In this document: positions 2-16,187 of the stretch, in pieces | How positions within the stretch are numbered: position 1 is the first letter of the stretch | How the letters are laid out: every line of letters begins with the position of its first letter | NCBI RefSeq assembly: GCF_022129235.1 | Contig: NZ_JADQAI010000010.1 | Coordinates: forward strand, 62,001-126,000 | DNA length: 64,000 nt | Origin: Psychrobacter sp. Ps6 | GTDB lineage: Bacteria > Pseudomonadota > Gammaproteobacteria > Pseudomonadales > Moraxellaceae | Direction: 5' to 3' | The notes under the pieces: model-generated | Database searches by the model: none | Seen by the model: the letters and a program-made list of their open reading frames with translations, nothing else | What the model was told of the DNA's origin: nothing | Program-made: the position numbers and the translations under genes

Positions 2-1825
2 GAAAGTAAGCGTGAAGATCTAGCGAATCGTCGTCTTGAGGCTTCAGACTTTAACAAGCTAGTGTCCAGTGATCCAGTCCGTGATTTACTCAGTTGGATG
101 AACGATGAAAAAGCTTGCCGTGAGCGCTGGGATGAGGCGCGCTGGCAAGCGTTAGTCGGTATTTGTGAAACTGAATATCATTTCAATCCCGAGCAAGATG
201 GCGAGCTGACAGCCGCTGAGCTGTTATGTCAGCGTCAGGGAGTTTGGGAGGGAGTGTGGCAGCGTTATGTTGAATCCTGTCATCATTACCCTTCTTTGCC
301 CGAGCTATTACTAAAGGTTCAGGGTGATCTTGTTGCTGATGGTGCAAGTTACCCAGTTATAAACCAAACTGAAGAATCTGCTTTAGAAGAATCATTATCT
401 CAGCTACAAACACTTAACTCAGTCGAGATACGTCAAGAGTTAGCTGCACTAGAACAGTATCATGCTGAACGACGAGAATGGATTTGGTTTAAGTTAAATA
501 TGGCTCCGCTGGCTGGTGTGCTGAAGTATTTGAGTGGTGTTGCAAGTATAACTCAGCAGGGTTTTTCTGGCACTGACCCTGAAGAGATGGCTACGTTATA
601 CCGTGATAAGTATTGGCAGGCGGATGACCTAACCCTCAAAGCCTTGGCTTATCCTTTAAGGTCCAGTCAGCAAGCTTTAGTACAAAAACTGCTTGCCCTC
701 ATCTATACGCCGTGGCTCGATGAGGTTACCTATAACTTCCAAAGTTTAGTAAAAGATAAAGGCTATCCCGGTACAACTCAACTCAACAAGGCGACAGCTG
801 ATTATGCTGATGCGGGAGAGGTGGTATTCTTCGTTGATGGCCTGCGTTATGACTTGGCACAGCGTCTTGTTGAACAGTTAAAGCCATTGGGAGAGGTTGG
901 ACTTGCCACTAACTGGTCGGCATTACCTTCAGTTACTGCAACGGCTAAAGCTGCTGTCACGCCAGTACACGATCGTCTAACCGGTAGAGGAACCGACCGT
1001 GATTTTGAACCAAGCCTACTGGATGAAGATAAAAGCTTCTCTGCTTATTACTTAAGAAAATTTCTGAAAGAAAAAGGTTGGCTCTACCTTGAAGAGGGTG
1101 ACTCAGGAGATCCGGCATTTAATGCATGGGTACAAAGCGGCGATATAGATAAGGAGGGCCATGTAAAAGGTCTTAAACTTGTAGGAAGGGTTGATAGTTT
1201 ATTAGATGAAATAGTTGAGCGGATTGAAGAGTTGCTGGCGGCAGGATGGCGTAAAATTAGAATCGTAACGGACCATGGGTGGATGTTGACTCCTGAAACG
1301 ATGCCGAAGGTGGAGCTACCTAAACACTTAACAGAAACTCGTTGGGGACGATGTGCAGTAATTAAAGATTCAGTTGCCAGTGGCTATTTGCAGGTAGGTT
1401 GGTACTGGAACAGCCAAGTCAGTATCGCTATAGCCCCAGGGGTTTCGTGTTTTAAGGCTGGCTTGCATTATGATCATGGTGGCTTGAGCCTACAGGAGTG
1501 CTTGACACCGGTGATTGAAGTTCTTAATAAACAAAGCTCGATCCCAGCTACTACATCAACGATTACAGCGACCCTATCAGATTTGCGTTGGATTGGGTTT
1601 CAGTGCAGAGTGCAAGCTGATAGTGACTTTGATGGGATTGTCGCAGTGCTACGAATACACGCGGCTGACTCAGACTCTGAGATTAGTAAGCGTAAACCCC
1701 TTAAAGAAGGTAAATGCACGCTCATGGTGGATGACGAATATGAAGATACGTCAGCTATTCTTGTACTGCTAGACGAGCATGGCAATGTGATAGCAAAAAA
1801 ACCAACATTAGTAGGAGACATGTAA
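2..1825 (+). CDS. pglZ: BREX alkaline-phosphatase-like protein PglZ (5' end outside window)
   Basis: This is the C-terminal ~607 residues of PglZ, a core BREX phage-defence protein. The frame is open to the left edge from position 2, so the gene starts upstream. The alkaline-phosphatase-superfamily core is visible. VVFFVDGLRYDLAQ (near 830-870) carries the first metal-binding Asp. IRIVTDHGWML (near 1258-1290) carries a second Asp-His pair, and HYDHGG lies near 1468. The stop codon is followed at once by the GTG of brxL, so the two are co-transcribed and probably translationally coupled. In type 1 BREX the order is brxA-brxB-brxC-pglX-pglZ-brxL, so brxC and the pglX methylase are expected to the left, out of sight. 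The family assignment is firm. The precise biochemical role of PglZ in BREX is not settled. Confidence 0.93.
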   Translation, partial: ESKREDLANRRLEASDFNKLVSSDPVRDLLSWMNDEKACRERWDEARWQALVGICETEYHFNPEQDGELTAAELLCQRQGVWEGVWQRYVESCHHYPSLPELLLKVQGDLVADGASYPVINQTEESALEESLSQLQTLNSVEIRQELAALEQYHAERREWIWFKLNMAPLAGVLKYLSGVASITQQGFSGTDPEEMATLYRDKYWQADDLTLKALAYPLRSSQQALVQKLLALIYTPWLDEVTYNFQSLVKDKGYPGTTQLNKATADYADAGEVVFFVDGLRYDLAQRLVEQLKPLGEVGLATNWSALPSVTATAKAAVTPVHDRLTGRGTDRDFEPSLLDEDKSFSAYYLRKFLKEKGWLYLEEGDSGDPAFNAWVQSGDIDKEGHVKGLKLVGRVDSLLDEIVERIEELLAAGWRKIRIVTDHGWMLTPETMPKVELPKHLTETRWGRCAVIKDSVASGYLQVGWYWNSQVSIAIAPGVSCFKAGLHYDHGGLSLQECLTPVIEVLNKQSSIPATTSTITATLSDLRWIGFQCRVQADSDFDGIVAVLRIHAADSDSEISKRKPLKEGKCTLMVDDEYEDTSAILVLLDEHGNVIAKKPTLVGDM

Positions 1826-3874
1826 GTGGAATTAGATGGGCTAGACCAAAAGGCTGCAGATTTCTTTGAGGGCTACATCGTTCGTAAGGATCTTGTCCGT
1901 ACATTTGCTCGCCAGTTCCCAGTACCAACTTATGTGGTTGAGTTTATGCTGGGTCGTTATTGTGCATCAACAGACCCAGATGAAATAGAGGAAGGTCTTG
2001 AAATTGTCCAGCGTCAGCTGTCTTCAAGAACAGTACGTGCAGGAGAGGAGGAGCTATTCAAAGCACGTGCCTATAAGGATGGATCAGCCAAGCTTATTGA
2101 TATCGTTAGTGTCAAGTTTGTCGAAAAAGAGAATGGTTACCTTGCCAGCTTACCTAGTTTAAACCTTACTAAAGTACGTATACCGGACAAGATTGTTGAT
2201 GATAATGAGCGTCTTTTGACAGGTGGGTTTTATGCTGAAGTAACGCTTGAATACGACAGTATTATTGCAGAAGAAAAAGGCAATGCTTTTGGTATAGCTG
2301 AATTGCGACCCATTCAAATGTCAAAACGTAACGTGCTAGATGTGATGAATGAAGCTCGCACAAACTACACTAGTGATGAATGGCGTGATTTCTTAATTCG
2401 CTCTATCGGCTTGGAACCAAGCGCTTTATCACAACGGGCTAAAGATGCCATCCTACTGCGTATGGTGCCATTCGTTGAGCGTAACTACAATATGGTCGAA
2501 TTGGGACCACGTGGTACAGGTAAGAGCCACTTGTTCCAGCAGGTATCCCCTTATGCTCATCTGATTTCTGGTGGTAAAGCAACAATCGCTAAGATGTTTG
2601 TGAATAATGCTAGTGGGCAGCGTGGTTTGGTCTGTCAGTATGATGTAGTTTGTTTTGATGAAGTTAGCGGAATATCCTTTGATACTAAAGAAGGTGTCAA
2701 TATCATGAAAGGCTACATGGAGTCAGGTGAGTTTAGCCGAGGTAAGGAAAGTATCCGTGCAGATGGGTCGTTGGTGTTCGTAGGAAACTTCGATGTGGAT
2801 GTTGAGCATCAGCAACGTGTGGGCCACTTATTCGGTCCTTTACCTGCAGAAATGCGGGATGACACCGCATGGATGGATCGTATTCACTGCTATTTGCCAG
2901 GCTGGGATGTCCCAAAAATGAGTAAAGAGCTCACTACAAATCATTTTGGTTTAGTTAGCGACTTCTTTTCTGAATGCATGACTCGCCTGCGCTTTCAAAG
3001 TCGTGTCTCTGCTATGCAGAATCGTGTGTATTTAGGTGGTGCACTCAGTGGCCGTGATAGCAATGCAGTTAATAAAACAGTATCAGGCCTACTAAAATTA
3101 ATGTATCCAGATGCCGAGCTTAGCGTATCTGATGAAGACTTAGAATGGGCAATTCGTTTGGGGCTTGAAGTACGCCGCCGGGTGAAGGAGCAACAGAAGC
3201 GAGTTGGTGCTGCTGAGTTTCGTAATACCCATTTCAGCTACACTATCGGTGATGATGGAATTGAAAAGTTTGTCGCTACAGCAGAGCTAAGAGCAAATAA
3301 CGAGATAGGCGATGACCCCTTAGAGCCAGGACAGGTTTGGACTATTAGTGAGGGTGGTTCTGAGGTTGATGACAATGCCGGTTTGTATCGTATTGAAGTA
3401 AACGAAGGGCCTGGCTCCGGAGTGAAGATTCTTAATAATCCAGCACCTGCTGCGTTCAAGGAGTCCTTACGTTACGCTGAACAGAACCTCTATGCGCGCT
3501 CCATGCAGCTGATAGGAGATCGTGATCCTAGAGCTCATGAGTTCACAGTACAACTGAGGGCTTTCGATGCGGCTAAGAAGGGTTCTAGGATCGGTGTTGC
3601 AGCGCTAGTTGCTATGTGTAGTAGTGTGCTGAAGAAATCGCTAAAAGGTGGCTTGATCCTGATAGGGGAAATCAATTTGGGTGGCTCTATTGAACCAGTC
3701 ACCAATGCGGTGAATATTGCTGAGCTGGCAGTGGAAAAGGGTGCCAGCGTGCTACTTATGCCAGTTACAGCTAGGCGTCAGCTGTATGACTTGTCAGATG
3801 ATATGGCTACGAAAATTGATATACAGTTTTACCAAGATGCACGTGATGCACTGTTGAAAGCTATAGTAGAGTAA
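1826..3874 (+). CDS. brxL: BREX Lon-like AAA+ protein BrxL
   Basis: A 682-residue BrxL, the Lon-related AAA+ protein that ends type 1 BREX operons. The Walker A motif is GPRGTGKSH (near 2508-2535) and the Walker B motif is VCFDEVSG (near 2650-2670). The C-terminal ~130 residues match the Lon proteolytic-domain fold (GGLILIGEINLGGSIEPVTNAV). The usual Lon PSAG serine motif reads SRIG here, and the lysine after the Gly-Gly stretch reads as an Asn, so I see no Ser-Lys dyad and the fold is probably non-proteolytic. Translation starts at GTG 1826, directly after the pglZ stop (TAA|GTG), which points to coupling. It is the last gene of the BREX operon and is followed by a good intrinsic terminator. 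Confidence 0.93.
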   Translation: MELDGLDQKAADFFEGYIVRKDLVRTFARQFPVPTYVVEFMLGRYCASTDPDEIEEGLEIVQRQLSSRTVRAGEEELFKARAYKDGSAKLIDIVSVKFVEKENGYLASLPSLNLTKVRIPDKIVDDNERLLTGGFYAEVTLEYDSIIAEEKGNAFGIAELRPIQMSKRNVLDVMNEARTNYTSDEWRDFLIRSIGLEPSALSQRAKDAILLRMVPFVERNYNMVELGPRGTGKSHLFQQVSPYAHLISGGKATIAKMFVNNASGQRGLVCQYDVVCFDEVSGISFDTKEGVNIMKGYMESGEFSRGKESIRADGSLVFVGNFDVDVEHQQRVGHLFGPLPAEMRDDTAWMDRIHCYLPGWDVPKMSKELTTNHFGLVSDFFSECMTRLRFQSRVSAMQNRVYLGGALSGRDSNAVNKTVSGLLKLMYPDAELSVSDEDLEWAIRLGLEVRRRVKEQQKRVGAAEFRNTHFSYTIGDDGIEKFVATAELRANNEIGDDPLEPGQVWTISEGGSEVDDNAGLYRIEVNEGPGSGVKILNNPAPAAFKESLRYAEQNLYARSMQLIGDRDPRAHEFTVQLRAFDAAKKGSRIGVAALVAMCSSVLKKSLKGGLILIGEINLGGSIEPVTNAVNIAELAVEKGASVLLMPVTARRQLYDLSDDMATKIDIQFYQDARDALLKAIVE

Positions 3875-3964: not shown

Positions 3965-4592
3965 GTACTAGGTTATGCTAAGCACGTCGTTATTTTTTCC
4001 ACTAAATCTAATAATAACAAACCCTAAAAAATGACGATATTAACACCTAAGCAGTAGAGCTTGCCCAATTTTATATACTGATAAAAGTCGATATATACTT
4101 CATTCTATATACTACACATCCATAGTCCTCGGGTAACCCTCCTAACAATTGATCATGATTATTGAAGCAAACGATAGAATTTAGAATAGTATATAACCTA
4201 GAAAACTAATTGGTAGGCAGTTTAATATACTTATCTTAATGATAATCACTGATGAGCGAATGGATATGACAGCGGTTTTAAGTAATGAGGATGAACCTCT
4301 TATTGAAACAATAGCCCACGCGTGCGCCATTGCTTTTCAAGGTAATGCCAGCAACGGACTGCAGTAAGACTATTTTTCTTTCTAGATCATTGGGGGGATT
4401 ACCATTGGTATCAAGAGGATTTAAGGGTGATGGCAGTGACATCAGTACAAGCGCCATTTTGTCTTGCCGTATCGGGTGGCGTTGCTAGCTCTAACAAGTC
4501 ACAGCACTGCTCAAAGGCAGTTGTCAAAGCAATTTATGATAGTTCACTTTTAAGATGACAGTTTGATAGATTCGATAACCTATAGAGTAGCT
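3965..4592. other. Long AT-rich intergenic region between BREX and the WYL gene
   Basis: About 630 nt without a convincing gene. Three direct copies of TATATACT occur at 4072-4079, 4092-4099 and 4106-4113. Further TATATA-type stretches lie near 4188. At 4019-4054 is a 36-nt segment about 80% identical to 9241-9276. A 59-codon minus-strand frame at 4278-4457 and a 33-codon plus frame at 4266-4367 are both open. I do not recognise either product and treat them as remnants or chance frames. The region should contain the promoter of the downstream WYL-nuclease-FtsZ-like cluster. Confidence 0.5.
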
Positions 4593-5684
4593 CATATGTC
4601 TACACACCCAATCGCAACCTACAAAAAATCAGCCCGTTTGTTTGCGCTCTATCAGCGCTTGCCACGTAGTAAAGACAAGGCAATATCACTCACAGAGCTA
4701 ATGAGTGTTTATGGCTATAATCCTGACCATTACGCAAATGAGCGCAAAAATTTAGAGAACGATCTAACAAGTCTCAATCAAATATTCAATGACGTTTTTC
4801 ACAGCGATGCTTTAATGCGCCTGCCAGCTTGGGGTCAAAATATCAGCGGCAAGACAGCACGGTTTTATATTGAGCCAAGTTTTAGTATCGATATCATTAA
4901 TGAGCAAACCGTCTTTTTTTGGCAGATGCTAGCTAATTATACTGCAAACTACTTGCCAGCACCTTTTAAGCAAAGTATTGACGATAAATTGACTCAGTTA
5001 GATCGTCAAGATAGACATAGCTTTAATCAAAGCAAGCTGGGGCAGTGGCAAGACCATCTCATTACCCTGCCGAGTATCGTACAAGCACCAAAGCTTGATA
5101 GTGAGGTGCTGGCTAGCATTCATCAGGCGCTATTACACAACAAGCAGCTTCAAATCAGCTATCAAAACAAATGGCGTAACAATCCTACAATCAGGGTAAT
5201 CTACCCTAAAGGACTTATTTTTATCGACAATATGATCTATCTTACTGGGTTTAATCCAACGAGTGATCATATCGATGATAACGTCCTGTTGAAGGCACAT
5301 CGTAATTTTGCAGTTAATCGTATTGAAGCAGCTGAAGTAACAGAGCAGTTGGTACCGGACTGGGTAGAGCGCAATGCTTTTACTCTTGAGAATCTACGTA
5401 AGCTAGGAAAGCTTGAATTGAATAATGGTTTGAAAATCGGACTGGTTCTAAAGGTGCAAAAATATGCCTGCCAGCATTTATATGAGCGGCCGTTATCATC
5501 TACTCAAACGATTACGGTTATCGATGACACTTGGAACGAAGTGCGTGCAACAGTTGCCAATACGCAGCGCTTGCAAGACTGGCTAGTCAGTATGTCGCAG
5601 TTGGCAGTGGTGATTGAGCCTAACGAGTTAAAAGCGGTTATTTTAGAGCGTTTAGAAAGCGGGATGAAATTATATACAAAATAG
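4593..5684 (+). CDS. WYL-domain transcriptional regulator
   Basis: A protein of about 363 residues when read from the ATG at 4593; an upstream in-frame start at 4563 exists but adds a non-conserved leader. The N-terminus (SARLFALYQRLPRSKDKAISLTELMSVYG) looks like a winged helix-turn-helix. The middle carries a WYL domain (YPKGLIFIDNMIYLTGFN, with the WYL position read as IYL). The end is WCX-like (LVLKVQKYACQHLYERPLS). WYL proteins are ligand-responsive DNA-binding regulators often linked to defence loci. BREX loci in related bacteria have the WYL regulator BrxR, but that gene normally lies upstream of the operon, whereas this one is downstream after a terminator. It probably controls the next two genes (67-nt and 43-nt gaps) and possibly BREX. 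Confidence 0.8.
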   Translation, partial: HMSTHPIATYKKSARLFALYQRLPRSKDKAISLTELMSVYGYNPDHYANERKNLENDLTSLNQIFNDVFHSDALMRLPAWGQNISGKTARFYIEPSFSIDIINEQTVFFWQMLANYTANYLPAPFKQSIDDKLTQLDRQDRHSFNQSKLGQWQDHLITLPSIVQAPKLDSEVLASIHQALLHNKQLQISYQNKWRNNPTIRVIYPKGLIFIDNMIYLTGFNPTSDHIDDNVLLKAHRNFAVNRIEAAEVTEQLVPDWVERNAFTLENLRKLGKLELNNGLKIGLVLKVQKYACQHLYERPLSSTQTITVIDDTWNEVRATVANTQRLQDWLVSMSQLAVVIEPNELKAVILERLESGMKLYTK

Positions 5685-6817: not shown

Positions 6818-7459
6818 ATGAAATATCAGCTCGACGAATCGAAAGTAGATGACATTCCATGTGTCGCCTTATACCGACCAAATAAAGGCCATTATTCGCC
6901 ATCTGTTATCGCCTGTTTTATGATCAATGACGGTTGGAATGAGCAAGCACTACTAGCGCTAAAACAGAAAGTAGATGCTGATATTTTAGTAGGCTTACAG
7001 ACAGATGATCATAAGTATGAACGCTTGGATATTATAGAGGGGGTTGTTAGATGTCAGCCTGATGAAGTAAATGATGTCATTGAACTGCTAGATGTAAAGT
7101 CTGCAAGTACTATCATCGGTATAGATGTAGCAGACGTTATAAGCTTGTTTGAGTGTGGTTATTCATTTCAGTTTGTTCAAGCAAGTGCCACAGGTGAGTC
7201 TGAATCAGATTTAATAAAAACAACCACACATAAACTTGTGAAACAACTTTCAAAAGCTCATGATACTAGAGGATTGTTTGTTGGAATGGAGAATGTTGAA
7301 AGTCTCCCACTAGATGTCTTTTCTTATATATCAGAAGCTGTTGAAGCGTTATTATTTACTGATGATGTATCTATTTATTACAGCTCAAGTATGATTGATG
7401 AACCTGATTGCTTTCGTTTAAAGGCAGTTTATGCTGAAGAAAAGCAAAGCCACATATAA
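6818..7459 (+). CDS. Small protein resembling a free-standing FtsZ C-terminal domain
   Basis: A 213-residue protein. Residues ~98-207 read like the C-terminal domain of FtsZ. IGIDVADV lines up with the FtsZ T7 loop NVDFADV and keeps both aspartates (Asp103, Asp106) while Asn becomes Gly. It is followed by GY...ASATGES (FtsZ GYAMMGSGVASGE), then RGLFVGM (RGVLVNI), LPLDVFSYISEAV (LRLDEFETVGNTI), VSIYYSSSMID and DCFRLKAVYA (DELRVTVVA). I made this alignment by eye. The N-terminal ~95 residues do not show the FtsZ nucleotide-binding motif GGGGTG(S/T)G, so it should not bind GTP in the FtsZ manner. It lies 43 nt after the nuclease gene, and the IS630 element begins about 25 nt after its stop. A role in capping or poisoning FtsZ filaments is inference. 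Being an unrelated alpha/beta protein is the alternative. Confidence 0.55.
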   Translation: MKYQLDESKVDDIPCVALYRPNKGHYSPSVIACFMINDGWNEQALLALKQKVDADILVGLQTDDHKYERLDIIEGVVRCQPDEVNDVIELLDVKSASTIIGIDVADVISLFECGYSFQFVQASATGESESDLIKTTTHKLVKQLSKAHDTRGLFVGMENVESLPLDVFSYISEAVEALLFTDDVSIYYSSSMIDEPDCFRLKAVYAEEKQSHI

Positions 7460-7546: not shown

Positions 7547-7897
7547 ATGACTTATTCAATAGACTATCGCAAACAGGTACTTTTTAGCATCGCTGATGGT
7601 ATGACCATACGAGAAGCTGCGCTATTTTATGGACTTAGCACCAGCACCATTCACAGCTGGCAGCAGAACCTAGCTCCTAAAACAACCAGAAATAAAGCAC
7701 CGACTAAAATACCTGATGACGCCTTAATTGAAGACGTAAAAACATATCCAGATGATTATAACTATGAAAGAGCTCGTCGCTTGAACTGTAGTCAAACGGG
7801 TATCTTTAATGCTTTAAAGCGTCTTGGTATCAGTCAAAAAAAAGACCCTAGAACATCCAAAAGCGTGTCCGATAAAAAGAGCGGTATTCCAGAGTAG
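7547..7897 (+). CDS. IS630 transposase, N-terminal helix-turn-helix frame
   Basis: A 116-residue frame that encodes the DNA-binding part of an IS630 transposase: TIREAALFYGLSTSTIHSWQQ is a helix-turn-helix of the kind found at IS630 N-termini, followed by a second HTH-like segment (RRLNCSQTGIFNALKRLGI). After a run of eight A residues at 7836-7843 it reads on in the wrong frame (KKDPRTSKS...) and stops at 7897. Removing one A, by mutation or polymerase/ribosome slippage, would fuse it to the catalytic frame and give a normal product of about 280 residues. Confidence 0.85.
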   Translation: MTYSIDYRKQVLFSIADGMTIREAALFYGLSTSTIHSWQQNLAPKTTRNKAPTKIPDDALIEDVKTYPDDYNYERARRLNCSQTGIFNALKRLGISQKKDPRTSKSVSDKKSGIPE

Positions 7898-8390
7898 GCT
7901 TGATCGCTTTACGCAGCAAGGCTACCCCATTGTCTATATGGATGAAAGCGGCTTTGAGGCTGAAACCATTCGTTCTCATGGCTATGCACCGATTGGTACA
8001 CCCTGTATCGATAGCTACAACTGGCAAGCAAAAAAGCGAACCAACGTCATCGGAGCTCTCTATGAAAAGATGCTATTTGCGCTTGATTACGTTGAGCAGA
8101 ATATCAATAGCACCATATTCTACGACTGGTGCAAACACACTTTAATTCCAAGTCTCAAGACTAAATGCGTGATTGTCATGGATAACGCTCGGTTTCATAA
8201 AAGCAAACGTATTCAAAAGCTACTCAACAGACATGGCCATCGTATTCTTTGGCTACCACCGTACAGCCCTGATCTGAACCCTATCGAGAAGAAGTGGGCA
8301 CAGGCTAAGCTTCTACGCCAAGGATGGATGGAGAATAATCTACCTAAACTGTTTTATGATATGGGCTGTATCGATTTTATAAAGATTTAA
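7824..8390 (+). CDS. IS630 transposase, DDE catalytic frame
   Basis: A frame of up to 188 codons that holds the catalytic part of the transposase. The DDE triad is clear: IVYMDESGFE (first Asp), VIVMDNARFHK (second Asp), and LPPYSPDLNPIEKKW with the Glu in NPIE. It overlaps the N-terminal frame and lacks a credible start of its own (only TTG at 7824 inside the overlap), so it is likely expressed only through slippage at the A8 tract. The alternative is that the copy is frameshifted and dead. The stop at 8390 lies inside the right terminal repeat. Confidence 0.85.
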   Translation: MVSVKKKTLEHPKACPIKRAVFQSRLDRFTQQGYPIVYMDESGFEAETIRSHGYAPIGTPCIDSYNWQAKKRTNVIGALYEKMLFALDYVEQNINSTIFYDWCKHTLIPSLKTKCVIVMDNARFHKSKRIQKLLNRHGHRILWLPPYSPDLNPIEKKWAQAKLLRQGWMENNLPKLFYDMGCIDFIKI

Positions 8391-8405: not shown

Positions 8406-8732
8406 CTAGTTATATTTGCTAATAGAGTCTCCGCGCCACATAGCATGCTCACATACTGCACAAAACCAACTCTCTTTTGCCCGCATATAAGCAATATCGG
8501 CAGGTACTTCAATAGGACAGGCGCTTCCGCAATATTCACAGCACACATCATCTAGGCATGCGTAGCATTGGCTTACGGTTTCAAATAACGTATGGGTACT
8601 AATGCTATATTTTTGACAAAGCAGATGGACATAATCCACATAACTCATTTTATGGTTATAGGCCCAATAATCCTCACAAACCCGTTTGTCCCAAGCGTTT
8701 TGTGTCATGCTCCATTCAATGCTGATGCCCAC
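8406..8732 (-). CDS. Cysteine-rich small hypothetical protein, possibly truncated by the IS
   Basis: A 108-residue protein I do not recognise. Its second half is rich in paired cysteines (CYAC, CCEYCGSAC, then CAVCEH near the end), a pattern suited to two zinc-binding knuckles. The stop codon at 8406 is only about ten bases from the IS630 right end, so the natural C-terminus may have been removed by the insertion. It is divergent from the small XRE regulator gene at 8983, with a shared 250-nt promoter region. Confidence 0.45.
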   Translation of the reverse strand: MGISIEWSMTQNAWDKRVCEDYWAYNHKMSYVDYVHLLCQKYSISTHTLFETVSQCYACLDDVCCEYCGSACPIEVPADIAYMRAKESWFCAVCEHAMWRGDSISKYN

Positions 8733-9454: not shown

Positions 9455-10018
9455 GTGAAAAATAAAACTCTTCGCTCAACTCAAAAGCTGTTAGTTTTGA
9501 ACTCAGCAAACCTCACCATTCACCCTGATGCAAATACTGCTTTTATGGTTTGGCAGCAGCATAGGTTGCCTCTGCGTCGACCACAGCTGGCAGGCTTAGA
9601 TGATTATTATCGACCAGCATTGAGGTTATGTATGCTTGATAAAGACAGTTATCAGTTCTTCAATAACTTTGCACGAATCGATGAGGTAATGAGGTTCGAA
9701 GATAGCTGGCGTCAGCCTTGTCTGATTGCGCTTGAAAGTCGTCATGATATTAAGCGGCTGGCGTGGTGCGAGGTTCTCAATCTATCTAGGTTTGCTGGCG
9801 TGAACCATCCAGCCTTATTTCAAGCCATATATCAAAGTGCGCCAAAGCAGCTTGTTTGTGAGCTGATGGGCGTGCACCGACTAACTGTTAGCAATTACTG
9901 TCAGTTTGCAGGTATCAGTCAAAGCAGCTATGAGTATCAACAGTGCAAGGCAGCATGTGATAAGACTTTATTAGGTTTGCCTAAAAATATGAACTGGATG
10001 GGTGGTGTACATGGCTGA
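9455..10018 (+). CDS. First (small) protein of a three-gene recombinase module
   Basis: A 187-residue protein with a GTG start at 9455. It has no obvious catalytic signature. A segment near the C-terminus (ELMGVHRLTVSNYCQFAGIS) could be a helix-turn-helix. Its last 8 nt (ATGGCTGA) overlap the start of the next gene, so it is translated with the two large integrase-like proteins. Three-gene arrays of one small protein and two large recombinases occur in several mobile-element families, such as Tn554-like trios, RIT elements and gamma-mobile-trio islands. I cannot place this one among them by eye. Confidence 0.6.
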   Translation: MKNKTLRSTQKLLVLNSANLTIHPDANTAFMVWQQHRLPLRRPQLAGLDDYYRPALRLCMLDKDSYQFFNNFARIDEVMRFEDSWRQPCLIALESRHDIKRLAWCEVLNLSRFAGVNHPALFQAIYQSAPKQLVCELMGVHRLTVSNYCQFAGISQSSYEYQQCKAACDKTLLGLPKNMNWMGGVHG

Positions 10019-12323
10019 TACTAAAGCATTTGTTGACGTGACTGATAGGCGAGTATTAGATAAGATCGTTCCTGTAGGTTCGCCGCATTATGTCCAAATG
10101 CAAGCATTGGTTATTGATATTATTAGTCTGATGCCAGATGATGAGATTGATCTATTGTGTTCGACATCATGTGCTGATACTACTGATTTTCAGGGCATCG
10201 ATTGTACTGAAATAATCCAACAGATTGTAGGGAAAGGTAAGACTGGAGAGTGGGCGGTTACATACATGCTGCTCGTATTTTATCAAGCATATGGTGCTGT
10301 CGATAGCGGTAGTGATGCTTGGCGGTTTATAAGTGGCTATCTCAAGATCATGTTTATGATTGCGGCTAGGCACGATAAGCATTTTGCTAAAATCGACAAA
10401 TTGGGCGTTCGTATTCGCATGGCACTAAGACCTGCTGATCCGCAGCGCGATATCCTCAGCCAGCTAATTTGTATTCATGCAAAATATGATCGGTTATCTG
10501 ATTGTTTGAATGATATCAGAAAGTATGAAGCGCTGATCAAACAAGAGGAAGCTACGGGTAAAATCGCTAATCAGCATCTTGCCAGTAAAATTGGTCAAAT
10601 CAGGTTGGCTTATGAAGTGGTCATCAATAATAAAGCCTTTATCGGTAAAACCTATAATAAGAGTCACAGAAAATCAAAACAGTCCCAAAAAGTAATCAAT
10701 ACAACAACGCTCATTGATGGCGAGCCATTACAGAAAAAATTGTTTGGTACGAAACAATCAAAAAAGCACAGTAATGTGGCAATTGCTGAAAATATTGCCG
10801 ATAACGATGAAGTACCATTGCTAGACAATGACTTTAAGCCCGCCATACAAATCGCTAAATCCTCAGAGCTACAGCAATGGCGATTAAGAAACAATCACCG
10901 ACATGCCAGCCGTAATCAGTTTCATTTCCCAACCAATCACCGCCAATTGAGTATCACTGGCTATCAAATGCTATTTGCAATGCTATGGCAGCGCTTTATG
11001 AGCGGACATACAGGAAATAGGACGGGCTATGCCGTACTGCTATTGTCACTATTAAGCGGTATTAGTATTGACAATATAATTGATGATTGGCAATGCAGTC
11101 GTAGTCAGCGTCAGTATTTTGTTTATGACCGTATCCGTAAAATCAGTAGTATTGCTATCAAGATTGATGTGACCACCAATACCCGAAGTCATCTGCTTGC
11201 TCACAGGCAAAGCTATGGTAGCGTATTCAAGCGAGCATTACCTGAAGCGCTGCAGATCATGTTAGAGGATAAAGTTACTGTTTCACTTGATGATGTCAAA
11301 CTAGCCATCACTGAAGTTAAGAATCAGCTCAACCTGCCAGCTTTGAGTACTCAATATATCGAGTCTGGATTGTTTGTAGTGGTTAAAAATGGCCTTAGTA
11401 AACCGCTACATGCTGACATCCTCACAGGTGTTGATGTAAGGCACAGCTCGCCGCTGTATTACACCAGCATCAAAACTGCTGATCTAGAGCAAACCTATAT
11501 AAAAGCAGTAGCACTGCTAAGCGCATACTGTAATAACAAGCAAAAAGCGTTATTGATAGATGAGTGTAGTGTGCCAATGAATGGTCAAAAACGCTATATT
11601 GGTAGTGATATGGCGCTTGAAACTTTCACGTGCCAGCAGTTCTTTAACCAACTGGCTATGAGCGCTGAGAGCTATAATGGGCGGCTTAATCACAGTATCG
11701 AGCGCTATATTGCACAATTTAATAGCTACAGCACCTGGCTGTGGCATATTATTATGATTCAAACCGGTATCCGTCCGGTTAAACACGCACCAGGGCTGCT
11801 TAACCAGTTTGATTTTAAGCGACGCATATTGTGGGTGTCTGATAAAGAAGAGCGTCACGGTCAGTCTGATGGCAGGCTTATTCCGTTAAGTCAGTTTTTA
11901 GTGACTGCTATACAAAACTACATTGATTATATCAAGCAATTTGCTGCTATTTATAACCCTATCTGCCCCAAAACGCCTTATCCCATCGATGCTATTTTGC
12001 AATCAGAGCAACCGCTTATTCAAATTTACCAAAAAAATCCAAAAGGCTTTATCGGTATCTCGCCAAGCCGCGTTCGCTACCAGTTGCAAGACTTTTTTAG
12101 CCATCAGGATAATTGGCTGCGCCATCAACTGAGGTCTATGCTGACAGAATGCGTGCCAGATTACCTGATTTGTGCGCTTTACGGTCATGAGCATCCGGAT
12201 CAAGAATTCATGCATCCGATGTCATCAGGCTCTATTAATCAATTGCACCAGCTCAGCCTGCACCTAGATGCAATCGCCGACGAGCTTCACTTAAAACAAA
12301 TTGAGGTTCGCTTATATGGATAA
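10011..12323 (+). CDS. Large integrase-like protein, second of the recombinase trio
   Basis: About 770 residues from the ATG at 10011, which overlaps the previous stop by 8 nt. The C-terminal ~200 residues are tyrosine-recombinase-like. An arginine in MIQTGIRPV (residue ~585) would be catalytic Arg I. WLRHQLRSML supplies the His-x-x-Arg box (~704). YGHEHPDQEFMHPMSS gives the following His. No tyrosine occupies the usual nucleophile place 9-10 residues after that His (Phe or His instead), so it may be a non-catalytic partner or use another residue. The N-terminal ~280 residues are of unknown function, with a basic Lys/Ser-rich linker near 215-250. Confidence 0.75.
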   Translation: MADTKAFVDVTDRRVLDKIVPVGSPHYVQMQALVIDIISLMPDDEIDLLCSTSCADTTDFQGIDCTEIIQQIVGKGKTGEWAVTYMLLVFYQAYGAVDSGSDAWRFISGYLKIMFMIAARHDKHFAKIDKLGVRIRMALRPADPQRDILSQLICIHAKYDRLSDCLNDIRKYEALIKQEEATGKIANQHLASKIGQIRLAYEVVINNKAFIGKTYNKSHRKSKQSQKVINTTTLIDGEPLQKKLFGTKQSKKHSNVAIAENIADNDEVPLLDNDFKPAIQIAKSSELQQWRLRNNHRHASRNQFHFPTNHRQLSITGYQMLFAMLWQRFMSGHTGNRTGYAVLLLSLLSGISIDNIIDDWQCSRSQRQYFVYDRIRKISSIAIKIDVTTNTRSHLLAHRQSYGSVFKRALPEALQIMLEDKVTVSLDDVKLAITEVKNQLNLPALSTQYIESGLFVVVKNGLSKPLHADILTGVDVRHSSPLYYTSIKTADLEQTYIKAVALLSAYCNNKQKALLIDECSVPMNGQKRYIGSDMALETFTCQQFFNQLAMSAESYNGRLNHSIERYIAQFNSYSTWLWHIIMIQTGIRPVKHAPGLLNQFDFKRRILWVSDKEERHGQSDGRLIPLSQFLVTAIQNYIDYIKQFAAIYNPICPKTPYPIDAILQSEQPLIQIYQKNPKGFIGISPSRVRYQLQDFFSHQDNWLRHQLRSMLTECVPDYLICALYGHEHPDQEFMHPMSSGSINQLHQLSLHLDAIADELHLKQIEVRLYG

Positions 12324-15300
12324 TGTCACTGCGCACAAATTACGGCAGCTCAACAGAGATGATACTAAAAAAAGTGTCAAACACGCAGCTAAAGCTCTGA
12401 TTGCGGGCTATGTTAATCAAAATCCCATGCAGACGCCTTGTGAGCTACAGCATCATTATGAGGCGATTAATGAGCTATTAGAAAATAAGTTTGATACTGC
12501 CCAAAACTTTCAATTAGCGCGGCGCGGGTTTTTAGAATTTATTCGTGATTATAATAAAGCCCATCAGCTATACCTCAATGAGCCTGTGGTGCCAATACTG
12601 GCAACTCGTGAGCGCCTGACTACTAACTATGACTGGTTTGTCAATGGACGCGCTGTAGCAGATAGCAGAGCTATGATGATAGATATCTGGCAACGTAAAC
12701 GACGGTTCTCAGTGAACGATTTAGTTGAGGGACTGATTTATTGCAGTATTATGTATGGTGGTATCAATGATATTGAGGAGTTAAGAGCGCTTTACGTTTG
12801 GTTGTTTGGTGAGCGGCTTATTTATCAGATTCGTCTGCCAGCGACTGATGAGAACCGCGCAGAACAGGTAGCTGTAATACCACTTAGCGTGCCTGATGAC
12901 AACTATGGCTGCGCATTGGATGGTAGTGACGACTTACAGCGCTTTATCGACTACGTACCTGATGATATGACCCTGTGCTTTTTATACGCCATAAAAGATA
13001 AGGACTTGAGTAAAACAAAAATAGAGCCATTTAATACCATAATTAATGATATCTCAAAAAGACTTAAACTCACCAATAAAGATATTGAGCGTCCGCAGCA
13101 CTCCATGCTTATTAAGCATGCCAACTATCACTGGCGGCAGACGGAAGGTAGTCAGATAGATGGCGCGCTTGCCGTGGTGAAGCAAGGTGATATTAAAACC
13201 ACAGGACTGCCGACTGATAATCTCATTCATTATAACCGAGAGCCCATCAATCAAAATCCTGAGCCGCTTACGTGGTCTGAGTTGTTTGATGTCAGCTATA
13301 AAGTATCAGATAAGACACCTAATCAGAGTAATACCATCAACTATCCTAGCTTTAGCAAAAACTTAATTAAAGAAGTGCAAGATGCGCTCAAACTCACCAG
13401 AAGTGCTGCTATTTCTACTCTCACAACATTAAAGGTAGATGCTAGTCAGCCTAACGCACGACGTTTGCTTGGCTGGGCGTTGTCATTGGTGGGTGATCAT
13501 AGTATTCGGCTCAATACGGTCAGTAAATATTTGGGCTGCATTGGTCGCGATTGGCTGATGCTGACGATGGATGAAGATATTGATCAGTGGGAAGGCGATG
13601 ACTTTGAGGATATCTATGAGCAAATTATTCAAAGTAAGGTTAAAGATGGTCGGAAAAATTCAATCTTAAATAAATCATCTGAATTTAACCGGAGTACTGA
13701 TGATACAGAAGATGAAGCCAACACATTAGTCGATTCTGTTGAACAGAAAGCAGAGCGAAATACTTCTACGCTAGATCATTTAAAGGATAACCAAAAATTC
13801 ACTTATGGTCGTCTGCGAGCATTTCATGATTATCAGCGGGCGCGTTTCGATGCACCTTATGTGTATTTTCCATGGGGCAATAACCGGCAAGTGGTTAAAG
13901 CCGAAATGGTGTCACCACATGTATATCGCGCAATGAAAAGATACATACAATCATCGAAGTTAGAGGTTGAGCAACAGCAGTTATGCCTAATTGTTTTGGC
14001 ATTCGCTTATCGCACTGGCATGCGTATTAATGAGATTGTTGGTATTAAAGTTGATGATATTACAGATATAAGCAGTATCAATGGCTATGTCATTGAGTAC
14101 CCTAAAGTTATCCTCAGACCCAACCGTTATCGTAGGCTTAAAAGCAGTAGTGCCAAAAGGGTTATACCGATAGATAGTCTTTTCAAGGATGATGAATTAA
14201 AGCTGTTCACCGCATTCTATTATCAACAAAAAAGGTTAAAGCGGCGTTATTTACTCTCACAAGGCTCGGGTGACCAGCCACTGCCGTCTGTATTTTTTAG
14301 TAATATGATGAAAATAATATGGGATAGACTGCTGCTTACCCATGACTCTACCTTTCACAGATTACGGCATACGGCACTTAGTCAGCTGACATTGGTGTTG
14401 AGCGGCTCGCCACTGGCTCAGGTGATGACAGACTATGATAAAGAGCATAGTGACGCTATCGTTAGCGCCGTGCTTGCTAATAATAAAGAAAAAGGGATGT
14501 GGTTTGGGCTGGCTAGCTTTGCTGGGCATCTAACGCCAGATACTACGTTTGAGCACTACATTCATACCGCGCATTTGCTGGCAGGTTGGCAGATGAGTCA
14601 AGCTAAAATTAGTATGCCTATAACTGTATTTGAGATGCTGACAGGTATTGGTTATCAAACGATAAATAAACAAGATGGCATGGCGTATGATGCAAGCACT
14701 AAACAGGTTCGTCTTGATAAGATGCGTGGTTATTTGATCAATAAGGTTGCTGGTAAAAGACCACTATTTATTGATAATGATACACTGAACAATGAAGCTT
14801 GCCAGCAAGCCCTACAGTCAAAACCAGAAGAAGTGCGACAGTCTATATTTATTCATCCAAAAATATACGATGTAATTGCGCTATTAGAGGAACTACAGAC
14901 AGTAAATGTTGATAAACGAGTAGGGCAGTTGGCAGAGGTCGCACTTCGGCATGGTATTGCTATCAGTAATGCTAGACAAATTTACGATAATGCTTGCCAG
15001 CTATTTACCGATGATAGACTGATTTTAGGTGCGCCTACCGGACATAAGAACCAAAAAGTTTTAGTGACTGCGCTTGATCGTGCGTATCAAATGTCTATTG
15101 ATGACTCTGATAGACTGGAATCATTTATGAATATATTTTCAAATAAGAAAAATTTAAATATTTCATCAATCCATTTTGGTGTTAAAGAAAGCCAGCTTAA
15201 GTTGCTACAGCAATTTATGGCAGTAGGTTGTCAGCTTATTGATGCCAGTCATTGGCAGATTAGGGCGTATAGTGAGCAGGCAGTACGCAATGTAAAAAAA

Positions 15301-15498
15301 GAACTAGGGCTCGATAGTTTAATACGTATTGGTGCTCGTGAAAATTTCCATGGTTACGAGGTTAGGGTAGTACAGAAAAAACGCAAACGGTCTGATAATA
15401 ATTTGGCTATAACAGATGAGTATTATAGCTCGTCAGGGGTTTTGAAGTATTTGGGTTGCTTATTGTATGTATTGGCTAACGTTAACAACAATCAATAA
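12316..15498 (+). CDS. Large tyrosine recombinase, third of the recombinase trio
   Basis: About 1060 residues from the ATG at 12316, which overlaps the previous stop by 8 nt (ATGGATAA), the same arrangement as at the first junction. A complete tyrosine-recombinase set is visible in the central part: Arg in YRTGMRINEI (~570), His-x-x-Arg in FHRLRHTALSQL (~683), His in AGHLTPDTTFEHY (~737), and the nucleophile Tyr in the same motif (~747). Roughly 550 residues precede the catalytic domain and 300 follow it, far longer than phage integrases. The reading frame is undamaged, which suggests recent activity. It is likely the catalytic recombinase of the module that moved part of this island. Confidence 0.82.
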   Translation: MDNVTAHKLRQLNRDDTKKSVKHAAKALIAGYVNQNPMQTPCELQHHYEAINELLENKFDTAQNFQLARRGFLEFIRDYNKAHQLYLNEPVVPILATRERLTTNYDWFVNGRAVADSRAMMIDIWQRKRRFSVNDLVEGLIYCSIMYGGINDIEELRALYVWLFGERLIYQIRLPATDENRAEQVAVIPLSVPDDNYGCALDGSDDLQRFIDYVPDDMTLCFLYAIKDKDLSKTKIEPFNTIINDISKRLKLTNKDIERPQHSMLIKHANYHWRQTEGSQIDGALAVVKQGDIKTTGLPTDNLIHYNREPINQNPEPLTWSELFDVSYKVSDKTPNQSNTINYPSFSKNLIKEVQDALKLTRSAAISTLTTLKVDASQPNARRLLGWALSLVGDHSIRLNTVSKYLGCIGRDWLMLTMDEDIDQWEGDDFEDIYEQIIQSKVKDGRKNSILNKSSEFNRSTDDTEDEANTLVDSVEQKAERNTSTLDHLKDNQKFTYGRLRAFHDYQRARFDAPYVYFPWGNNRQVVKAEMVSPHVYRAMKRYIQSSKLEVEQQQLCLIVLAFAYRTGMRINEIVGIKVDDITDISSINGYVIEYPKVILRPNRYRRLKSSSAKRVIPIDSLFKDDELKLFTAFYYQQKRLKRRYLLSQGSGDQPLPSVFFSNMMKIIWDRLLLTHDSTFHRLRHTALSQLTLVLSGSPLAQVMTDYDKEHSDAIVSAVLANNKEKGMWFGLASFAGHLTPDTTFEHYIHTAHLLAGWQMSQAKISMPITVFEMLTGIGYQTINKQDGMAYDASTKQVRLDKMRGYLINKVAGKRPLFIDNDTLNNEACQQALQSKPEEVRQSIFIHPKIYDVIALLEELQTVNVDKRVGQLAEVALRHGIAISNARQIYDNACQLFTDDRLILGAPTGHKNQKVLVTALDRAYQMSIDDSDRLESFMNIFSNKKNLNISSIHFGVKESQLKLLQQFMAVGCQLIDASHWQIRAYSEQAVRNVKKELGLDSLIRIGARENFHGYEVRVVQKKRKRSDNNLAITDEYYSSSGVLKYLGCLLYVLANVNNNQ

Positions 15499-15574
15499 AA
15501 ACCTGTTTTATCTCAGGAAAGAAAGGTATGCTTTTATGTATGTGAGCTGATAAATATTAAGCTATATATATGAA

Positions 15575-15868
15575 TTAGGCCGGGCTTTTCGGAGTCAAGG
15601 TCACTTGTAGCCCCATACCATCAATAATCTTTAGCATGGTGTCAAAGCGCGGCTTTTCGGACTGCAAGGTCTTGTAAAGACTCTCGCGTCTTATGCCTGT
15701 CCTTTGTGCCAGCTCATTCATACCCTTTGCGCGTGCCACATCGTTGAGCGCTTCAATAAAGTCACTAGGCGCACCATCGCTCAGTGCTTCATTTAGGTAA
15801 GCATTGATAAGCGTTTCATCGGTTAGGTACTCCGCCACATCAAAGCGGCTGATTTTACTATCGGTCAT
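15575..15868 (-). CDS. Addiction-module antidote protein (antitoxin of RelE-type pair)
   Basis: A 97-residue antitoxin from the ATG at 15868. The family signature is clear: SRFDVAEYLTDETLINAYLNEAL followed by a helix-turn-helix (NELAQRTGIRRESLYKTLQSEKPRFDTMLKIIDGMGLQV). This matches the HigA-like putative addiction-module antidote family. A longer frame reaches 15925, but that start lies deep in the toxin gene and is unlikely. It overlaps the toxin gene by 11 nt, with the toxin first as in higBA-type operons. The antitoxin should repress the operon through its HTH. Confidence 0.88.
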   Translation of the reverse strand: MTDSKISRFDVAEYLTDETLINAYLNEALSDGAPSDFIEALNDVARAKGMNELAQRTGIRRESLYKTLQSEKPRFDTMLKIIDGMGLQVTLTPKSPA

Positions 15869-16187
15869 GAGGGTACTCCTTTGTGTCGTTCTGTACTTGT
15901 TGCCATAGGGTGCAAGCCTTAGCAATATCGCTTTGCTGGCTGTCTTTGCTGCCTCCTAACAGTAACAAGTAAACCGTATCGCCCTCTTGGGCATAATACA
16001 CGCGGTAACCGTTGCCCTTGAATATTCGCATCTCATAGATACCACCTGTATTAGCTAGGGGCTTATGGTCACCAAAATTGCCGCCTTGCGCTCGTTTGAT
16101 ACGTGTCAAGATGCCAACTTTGCCTAATGGGTCTTTGAGCTTATGCAGCCAGCGCCTAAATGCTTCAGTTTGGTTAATCTCAATCAT
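15858..16187 (-). CDS. RelE/ParE-superfamily toxin (HigB-like addiction-module killer)
   Basis: A 109-residue protein with the compact RelE/HigB fold signature: FRRWLHKLKDPLGKVGILTRIKRAQGGNFGDHKPLANTGGIYEMRIFKGNGYRVYYAQEGDTVYLLLLGGSK. Members usually cleave mRNA at the ribosome. The basic and aromatic residues in the central strand (YEMRIF, YRVYY) fit this. It precedes and overlaps its antitoxin. It sits between the recombinase trio and the satellite-like block, where it would stabilise the island. Confidence 0.88.
   Translation of the reverse strand: MIEINQTEAFRRWLHKLKDPLGKVGILTRIKRAQGGNFGDHKPLANTGGIYEMRIFKGNGYRVYYAQEGDTVYLLLLGGSKDSQQSDIAKACTLWQQVQNDTKEYPHDR

Follow-up and report, generated by a model that had tools for sequence, protein, structure and literature searches.

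FtsZ-like regulators of division are known in eukaryotes, where ARC3 of plants acts on Z rings; ARC3 resembles the protein described here in being FtsZ-like, although it is eukaryotic and has other domains. Within bacteria, the nearest described relative is FtsZ itself. In the model set out in PMC8936486, the growing end is the bottom face, where T7 is exposed and to which FtsZ monomers attach by the top face that bears GTP. The T7 face is described in PMC13423816 as the site of action of the inhibitors SulA, MciZ and Gp0.4 of phage T7, and the defence protein CapRel-Ebc, which according to that source senses the complex of Gp0.4 with FtsZ, ties FtsZ to phage sensing. FtsZ/tubulin and FtsK domains are also found, rarely, in conflict systems, where PMC7159879 describes them as effectors; the main text of that paper does not mention Psychrobacter.

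Here, we analyze a stretch of 64,000 nucleotides from Psychrobacter sp. Ps6 (hereafter, the window), which encodes a 213-amino-acid protein that we call a pseudo-FtsZ (Table 1). It shares with FtsZ, and especially with FtsZ of the Moraxellaceae, the C-terminal domain, the T7 loop with both of its aspartates and, in the model, the overall fold, and its relatives in a second genus (g28) share the C-terminal peptide as well. It differs from FtsZ in that its length falls about 100 residues short of that of the FtsZ core, it does not contain the tubulin signature GGGTG[TS]G, its N-terminal half has no sequence similarity to the GTPase domain, and it is present in only some Psychrobacter genomes (47 of 105). 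Its proposed target, as for SulA, MciZ and Gp0.4, is the FtsZ subunit interface; having the T7 face itself, however, it would be expected to contact the other face, where GTP sits. Whereas CapRel-Ebc uses the real FtsZ of the cell, here the FtsZ-like protein is itself a cassette gene. With the rare conflict systems it has in common the use of FtsZ- and FtsK-type domains as parts. Our searches of open-licence PMC papers listed no title or abstract with a description of such a protein. We regard it as a relative of FtsZ that has become a pseudo-GTPase and that occurs both in an accessory cassette and, in related proteins, in new fusions. A family without a name, of which we collected 268 proteins, is now given an identity.

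Table 1. Features of the window discussed in the text (positions count from the first nucleotide of the window)
Feature	Position	Strand	Remarks
BREX-1 tail (PglZ type B, BrxL)	62..3874	+	upstream neighbour in this genome; not counted as part of the cassette
Broken PP2C phosphatase, remnant of the cassette	~4240..4555	+	51-residue stretch at 4370-4537 matches at 80%; preceding piece ends at a stop codon (by eye)
WYL/WCX regulator	4563..5684	+	67 bp upstream of the nuclease gene; relative in 27/27 FZ loci with enough upstream DNA
PD-(D/E)XK_4 nuclease-like protein, 340 aa	5752..6774	+	43 bp upstream of the pseudo-FtsZ gene; Pfam PF14281 E 1.7e-7; PADLOC PDC-S26 E 1.3e-9
Pseudo-FtsZ protein FZ_A, 213 aa	6818..7459	+	ORF, ATG start; shrunken N-terminal half (residues ~10-94) and FtsZ-type C-terminal domain (~95-208)
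T7 (synergy) loop IIGIDVADVI, residues 99-108	7112..7141	+	D103 and D106 correspond in alignments to the two T7 aspartates of FtsZ

Similarity to FtsZ and predicted structure

Because the dN/dS values of the 213-aa gene against six relatives lie between 0.29 and 0.62, we regard it as a real gene under purifying selection. Its product has no usable match in Pfam, NCBIfam or PADLOC. In PADLOC, no family, and hence no known anti-phage model, matches it at E ≤ 1; the Pfam FtsZ_C model (PF12327) gives no match to it at E ≤ 1, the gathering cut-off of 27 bits not being reached; and PDB sequence searches return nothing significant. Weak FtsZ_C matches are found in 8 of 42 family members (best E = 8.8e-4). 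In a search of 5.8 billion proteins, 242 relatives were recovered at E ≤ 1, and, among the 120 matches listed, the organism is Psychrobacter wherever it is named.

The similarity of the 213-aa protein to the FtsZ C-terminal domain, which the preliminary description of this gene had pointed out, is real. In its own genome, the protein has FtsZ as its sole other match at E ≤ 0.1 (E = 3.6e-4, query residues 95-195, 31% identity), in a search for which no FtsZ had been supplied. In related genomes, it again matched frames of about 400 to 480 aa at about the same residues, and the FtsZ signature is present in all 18 checked Psychrobacter frames of that size class. HHalign comparisons of family alignments with Psychrobacter FtsZ gave Prob values of 96.6 and 93.3 (STIIGIDVADVISLF over EGMINIDFNDIRTAM), with IIGIDVADVISLF aligned to the FtsZ T7 segment MINIDFNDIRTAM and the alignment running on to the last strands.

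The relationship is also recovered with profiles of the family. Profile A3 was built from 42 family rows that are a hand-picked spread of the sequences found (L076, with a stop codon in the stretch, was dropped). By hand count, at least 61 of the 105 Psychrobacter genomes contain a frame the size of FtsZ that it matches with an E value no higher than 4.4e-11. In a search of 274 genomes of the class, the five matches listed from other genera all have the FtsZ signature. Its scores are 38 to 44 bits for Psychrobacter FtsZ, 16 to 21 bits for these five and 2 to 16 bits for the remaining FtsZ tested. A second profile (A5), for which 26 rows of the family and none of FtsZ were used, has matches in 274 of the 390 genomes of the order, and those outside the family, among the ones listed, fall on profile positions 95 to 211 and on frames of 381 to 518 aa, with one of 803. 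From a further alignment (A4), L060 was dropped (stop codon in the stretch), and L073 is also absent from it.

The N-terminal half spans only about 85 residues, and the tubulin signature is found in none of the 268 collected proteins or 54 aligned rows. Compared with 60 FtsZ sequences, this half gives no sequence match (best score, 0.8 bits), and its conserved residues, W40, L57, C79 and others, have no FtsZ counterpart by sequence. The best of five AlphaFold2 models of the full-length protein has a pLDDT of 81.8 and a pTM of 0.83 (mean pLDDT of the other four, 68.0 to 74.8). The Foldseek comparison that the preliminary description had proposed as a check agrees with its claim: the top 50 PDB matches of the model are FtsZ only, with moderate TM-scores of 0.39 to 0.65 by query. 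In the structural match, residues 10 to 208 of the model correspond to residues 6 to 312 of FtsZ, with 191 residues aligned, and the N-terminal half overlays the nucleotide domain of FtsZ in a shrunken form without the GTP signature. The FtsZ-like fold of this half rests on the full-length model, because the half modelled by itself scores poorly (AlphaFold2 pLDDT, 56.3) and has no FtsZ sequence match. From the model, the window protein looks like a pseudo-FtsZ with the whole FtsZ fold, shrunken, rather than a lone C-terminal domain. The preliminary description had seen a free-standing C-terminal domain with no GTPase domain. The loss of the GTP signature holds for all collected family members, but the N-terminal half appears to be the shrunken counterpart of the GTPase domain, and a free C-terminal domain is not favoured, given that the structural match covers almost the whole protein.

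Conservation of the T7 loop

Both T7 aspartates, which the same description had reported as kept, are strongly conserved. In 54 aligned rows (the 42 of profile A3 and 12 distant members; the rows are related, and the counts are therefore not independent), D106 is kept in 53, D103 in 46 and both in 45. Among the charged columns, D106 ranks first in conservation and D103 second, the latter narrowly above K49 and E83 (45 each). The eight rows in which D103 is replaced comprise two LRR-fused, three stand-alone FZ_B and three distant members. At the place of the FtsZ T7 asparagine, which we take to be N207 in E. coli numbering, 37 of the 54 rows have glycine. The matching FtsZ residues, D210 and D213 in S. 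aureus, are described in PMC8936486 as holding the catalytic water.

Distribution and descent

At E below 1e-15, the family is found in 49 of 299 genomes of the taxonomic family, which we take to be the Moraxellaceae; these are 47 of the 105 Psychrobacter genomes and two of g28 (hand count). Searches of the class and the order returned no family member outside these two genera among the matches listed. One plasmid record of 72,556, Psychrobacter NC_019274.1, carries a relative, and a plasmid search with a g28 relative found none. A phage origin was tried as well: none of the 32 viral contig stretches that matched a pattern encodes a relative, and in a structural search of viral proteins the top match was a phage FtsZ (E = 4.1e-6), ahead of weaker ones that included RusA resolvases.

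A tree computed from 45 rows of the C-terminal domain has several very long branches. In it, a single branch (99/96) separates the 15 FZ rows from all others, and FZ rows together with g28 FtsZ are split from the remainder at 100/97. The FZ family appears to be one clade joined to g28 FtsZ, its joining point being unsure on account of the very long branches. The N-terminal half is common to both genera, scoring 41.2, 36.7 and 27.7 bits in the three g28 proteins that have one, compared with at most 0.8 bits in 60 FtsZ sequences (the sets are small, hence bits). Independent origins in the two genera are not favoured, given the single branch and the shared N-terminal half. In a comparison of nine FZ proteins with the 60 FtsZ sequences, which are unequally grouped (18 from Psychrobacter, 3 from g28), the best FtsZ is that of the protein's own genus in all nine cases. 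The window protein scores 29.4 bits against FtsZ of its own genus, 14.2 against the next group and 9.2 against g28, and a g28 member (L101_c) scores 48.2 bits against g28 FtsZ and 19.8 against that of Psychrobacter; L104 (4.6 versus 4.4) and L108 (12.0 versus 11.5) are near ties. Taken with a single origin, this preference suggests that the family tracks, or is converted by, the host gene, a claim limited by the long branches.

The g28 relatives have further links to the divisome. In one g28 genome (G088), an FZ domain is fused, at the N-terminal end, to an FtsK/SpoIIIE motor and an FtsK gamma domain (L101:4823-6715, minus strand; 630 aa), and an ordinary FtsK is present besides. A related cassette with different cargo lies in the same locus (10714-14053, plus strand) and consists of PP2C, a pair of pseudo-FtsZ genes whose products have C-terminal peptides like that of FtsZ, and a SIR2-family gene, followed by a DUF262-type gene (14108-15808). 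All three stand-alone g28 members examined have an FtsZ-like tail: they end in GNSIxEYLxRQ or GNPIxEYLxRQ, resembling FtsZ of g28 (TGNSIQDYLRRQQ), a likeness equalled by none of 2,000 shuffles for each of the three. Among the 153 ORFs of the fetched loci, three have a loose form of the pattern within their final 30 residues; two are family members, and the third is an FtsZ piece. The C-terminal peptide of FtsZ is missing from the window protein, and none of the 268 collected proteins has the tail pattern.

The cassette

The pseudo-FtsZ is cargo of a PP2C-WYL cassette with PD-(D/E)XK nucleases, DUF1810 and LRR-fused versions. In the 38 loci of named genomes that we surveyed, some of which come from the same genome, a PP2C phosphatase is followed by a WYL regulator and then, variably, by a PD-(D/E)XK_4 nuclease, DUF1810 and one or two family members, either alone or on an LRR protein. 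WYL genes are present in 33 loci, PP2C in 28 and DUF262-type genes in 16, and the 38 loci contain 12 LRR fusions. For the 27 loci with at least 4.5 kb of upstream DNA, the numbers are 27 for WYL, 25 for PP2C, 18 for DUF1810, 15 for the nuclease, 10 for LRR and 13 for DUF262-type genes at any place in the locus. FZ_A and FZ_B often occur together in one cassette. The cassette nuclease of L034 (416 aa) matches PADLOC PDC-S26 at E = 8.6e-46.

The FZ family is present in 41 of the 46 Psychrobacter genomes with a PP2C match versus 6 of the 59 without one (hand counts, n = 105; Fisher P = 3.6e-17), which is not independent evidence of joint function because linked genes travel together. In one of the 41 genomes (G035), PP2C and FZ are far apart. 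Five Psychrobacter genomes have PP2C without FZ, and in three of them the nuclease or DUF1810 is nearby.

Proposed action on FtsZ and alternatives

We hypothesize, with a probability of roughly 0.4, that the pseudo-FtsZ is an FtsZ subunit without a GTP site that uses its T7 face to dock on FtsZ of the host and either stalls division or recruits a partner. Such an FtsZ-derived subunit, with its GTP signature gone and its nucleotide domain shrunken, would use its retained T7 loop and two aspartates to enter the GTP pocket of a host FtsZ molecule, as the upper subunit of an FtsZ filament does. Because it would have no pocket of its own, it could not be extended, and it would therefore occupy the face by which FtsZ monomers join filaments. 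By supplying the hydrolysis residues, it may also trigger GTP hydrolysis in the bound FtsZ. With a T7 face only, it could meet the GTP face of a free monomer, whose joining face it would hide, or that of the other end of a filament. The cassette regulators would hold it back until a threat is sensed, and division would then be stalled; fused forms would bring their partner, an LRR protein or the FtsK motor, to the division ring.

Arguing against this hypothesis are the glycine at the FtsZ asparagine position (37 of 54 rows), the replacement of D103 in 8 of 54 rows, the missing C-terminal peptide of the window protein, and the poor separate model and lack of an FtsZ sequence match of the N-terminal half. 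Moreover, because mutations of the bottom (T7) interface are described as toxic in the model of PMC8936486, as opposed to those of the top interface, strong poisoning by end capping alone is less likely. Poisoning by a subunit that has T7 only may be weaker than the preliminary description had hoped, and occupying the GTP face of free monomers would fit better. Growth arrest by the pseudo-FtsZ is something that we infer, and the preliminary description proves better than stated on the protein and weaker than stated on growth arrest. An FtsZ-like subunit without the GTP signature and with a strongly conserved T7 face would be a tool for separating the two interface faces of FtsZ in living cells with respect to docking, activation of GTP hydrolysis and end capping.

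A serious rival, which we nevertheless consider unlikely, is that the protein serves as a decoy or guardee by mimicking host FtsZ on the face that bears T7: phage inhibitors of FtsZ would bind it, the cassette (LRR part, PP2C, WYL) would sense this, and the nuclease or other effectors would be released, with no need for the protein to bind FtsZ itself. The retained face is the one used by inhibitors: in PMC13423816, Gp0.4 of phage T7 is, like SulA and MciZ, placed by modelling at the synergy-loop surface, and CapRel-Ebc is activated by the complex that Gp0.4 forms with FtsZ. Consistent with a decoy are also the nuclease, WYL and LRR proteins of the cassette, the DUF262-type genes in 16 of 38 loci, and the best scores of FZ proteins against FtsZ of their own genus. 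A bait, however, need not keep the catalytic aspartates so strictly, the C-terminal FtsZ peptide and FtsK fusion of g28 suggest action at the division ring, and PADLOC holds no model for the 213-aa protein. We know of no phage inhibitor of Psychrobacter FtsZ. Integrated decoys exist in plants, and, if the decoy explanation is true, a cassette that holds a copied phage target would be their bacterial counterpart. It would also extend the finding that bacterial immunity senses an FtsZ-inhibitor complex (PMC13423816).

The FtsK-motor fusion with its N-terminal FZ domain, the 12 LRR fusions in 38 loci and the FtsZ tail peptide of g28 members could instead mean that the FZ domain is a targeting or scaffold module, which places its carrier (an LRR protein, an FtsK-like motor or partner enzymes) at the Z ring and leaves FtsZ unharmed. 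This is rather improbable, as the window protein stands alone, with neither fused cargo nor tail peptide, and many cassettes hold two family members. Docking, decoy and ring targeting share a core, and it is quite probable that the protein either acts at, or imitates, an FtsZ interface. Tentatively, at somewhat less than even odds, we suggest that an immune or conflict cassette of Psychrobacter carries its own pseudo-FtsZ that keeps pace with host FtsZ. It would either lure division inhibitors made by phages or, as a dead subunit, turn host division off on demand, the same module having also been joined to LRR proteins and to an FtsK DNA motor.

The protein could also be an old FtsZ paralogue whose fold has been repurposed, working only with its own paralogues or with the PP2C and WYL proteins and unrelated to division. 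The frequent pairing of FZ_A and FZ_B and the conserved N-terminal residues that have no FtsZ counterpart are in keeping with this, but the strict T7 aspartates, the FtsZ tail, the FtsK fusion and the best match to own-genus FtsZ make it improbable. Finally, a chance likeness of a short motif to FtsZ, for which the missing Pfam FtsZ_C match and the low identity to FtsZ (31% over residues 95-195) would speak, is rejected as extremely improbable in view of the profile, tree and structure results.

Genes around the cassette

The preliminary description had placed the gene beside BREX and a nuclease. The setting does fit a conflict or defence cassette, but the usual partners in loci with enough upstream DNA are WYL and PP2C (27/27 and 25/27). 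Neither BrxL nor PglZ has a match in any of the 38 related loci within the flanks examined, where recurrent BREX linkage was not seen, and a role as partner or accessory of BREX was rejected.

More distant PP2C genes lie beside PD-(D/E)XK nuclease genes of the same family or DUF262-type genes in two other genera (L168:3713-6419, minus strand, G190, genus g36; L169:5247-10127, minus strand, G124, genus g31), and the stretches examined around them contain no pseudo-FtsZ. The phosphatase may therefore form the centre of a more widespread cassette whose cargo can be exchanged.

Directly behind the cassette in the window are two overlapping transposase-like frames (7547-8390, plus strand), presumably of the IS630 type. 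A 108-aa ORF follows (8406-8732, minus strand), relatives of which lie beside the pseudo-FtsZ gene in several loci. Three consecutive ORFs of 187, 773 and 1065 aa (9455-15498, plus strand), by their look possibly a recombinase trio, are likewise found behind the cassette in several related loci. Beyond them, two small adjoining ORFs (15575-16187, minus strand) resemble, by the look of their sequence, a toxin-antitoxin pair of the HigB/HigA type.
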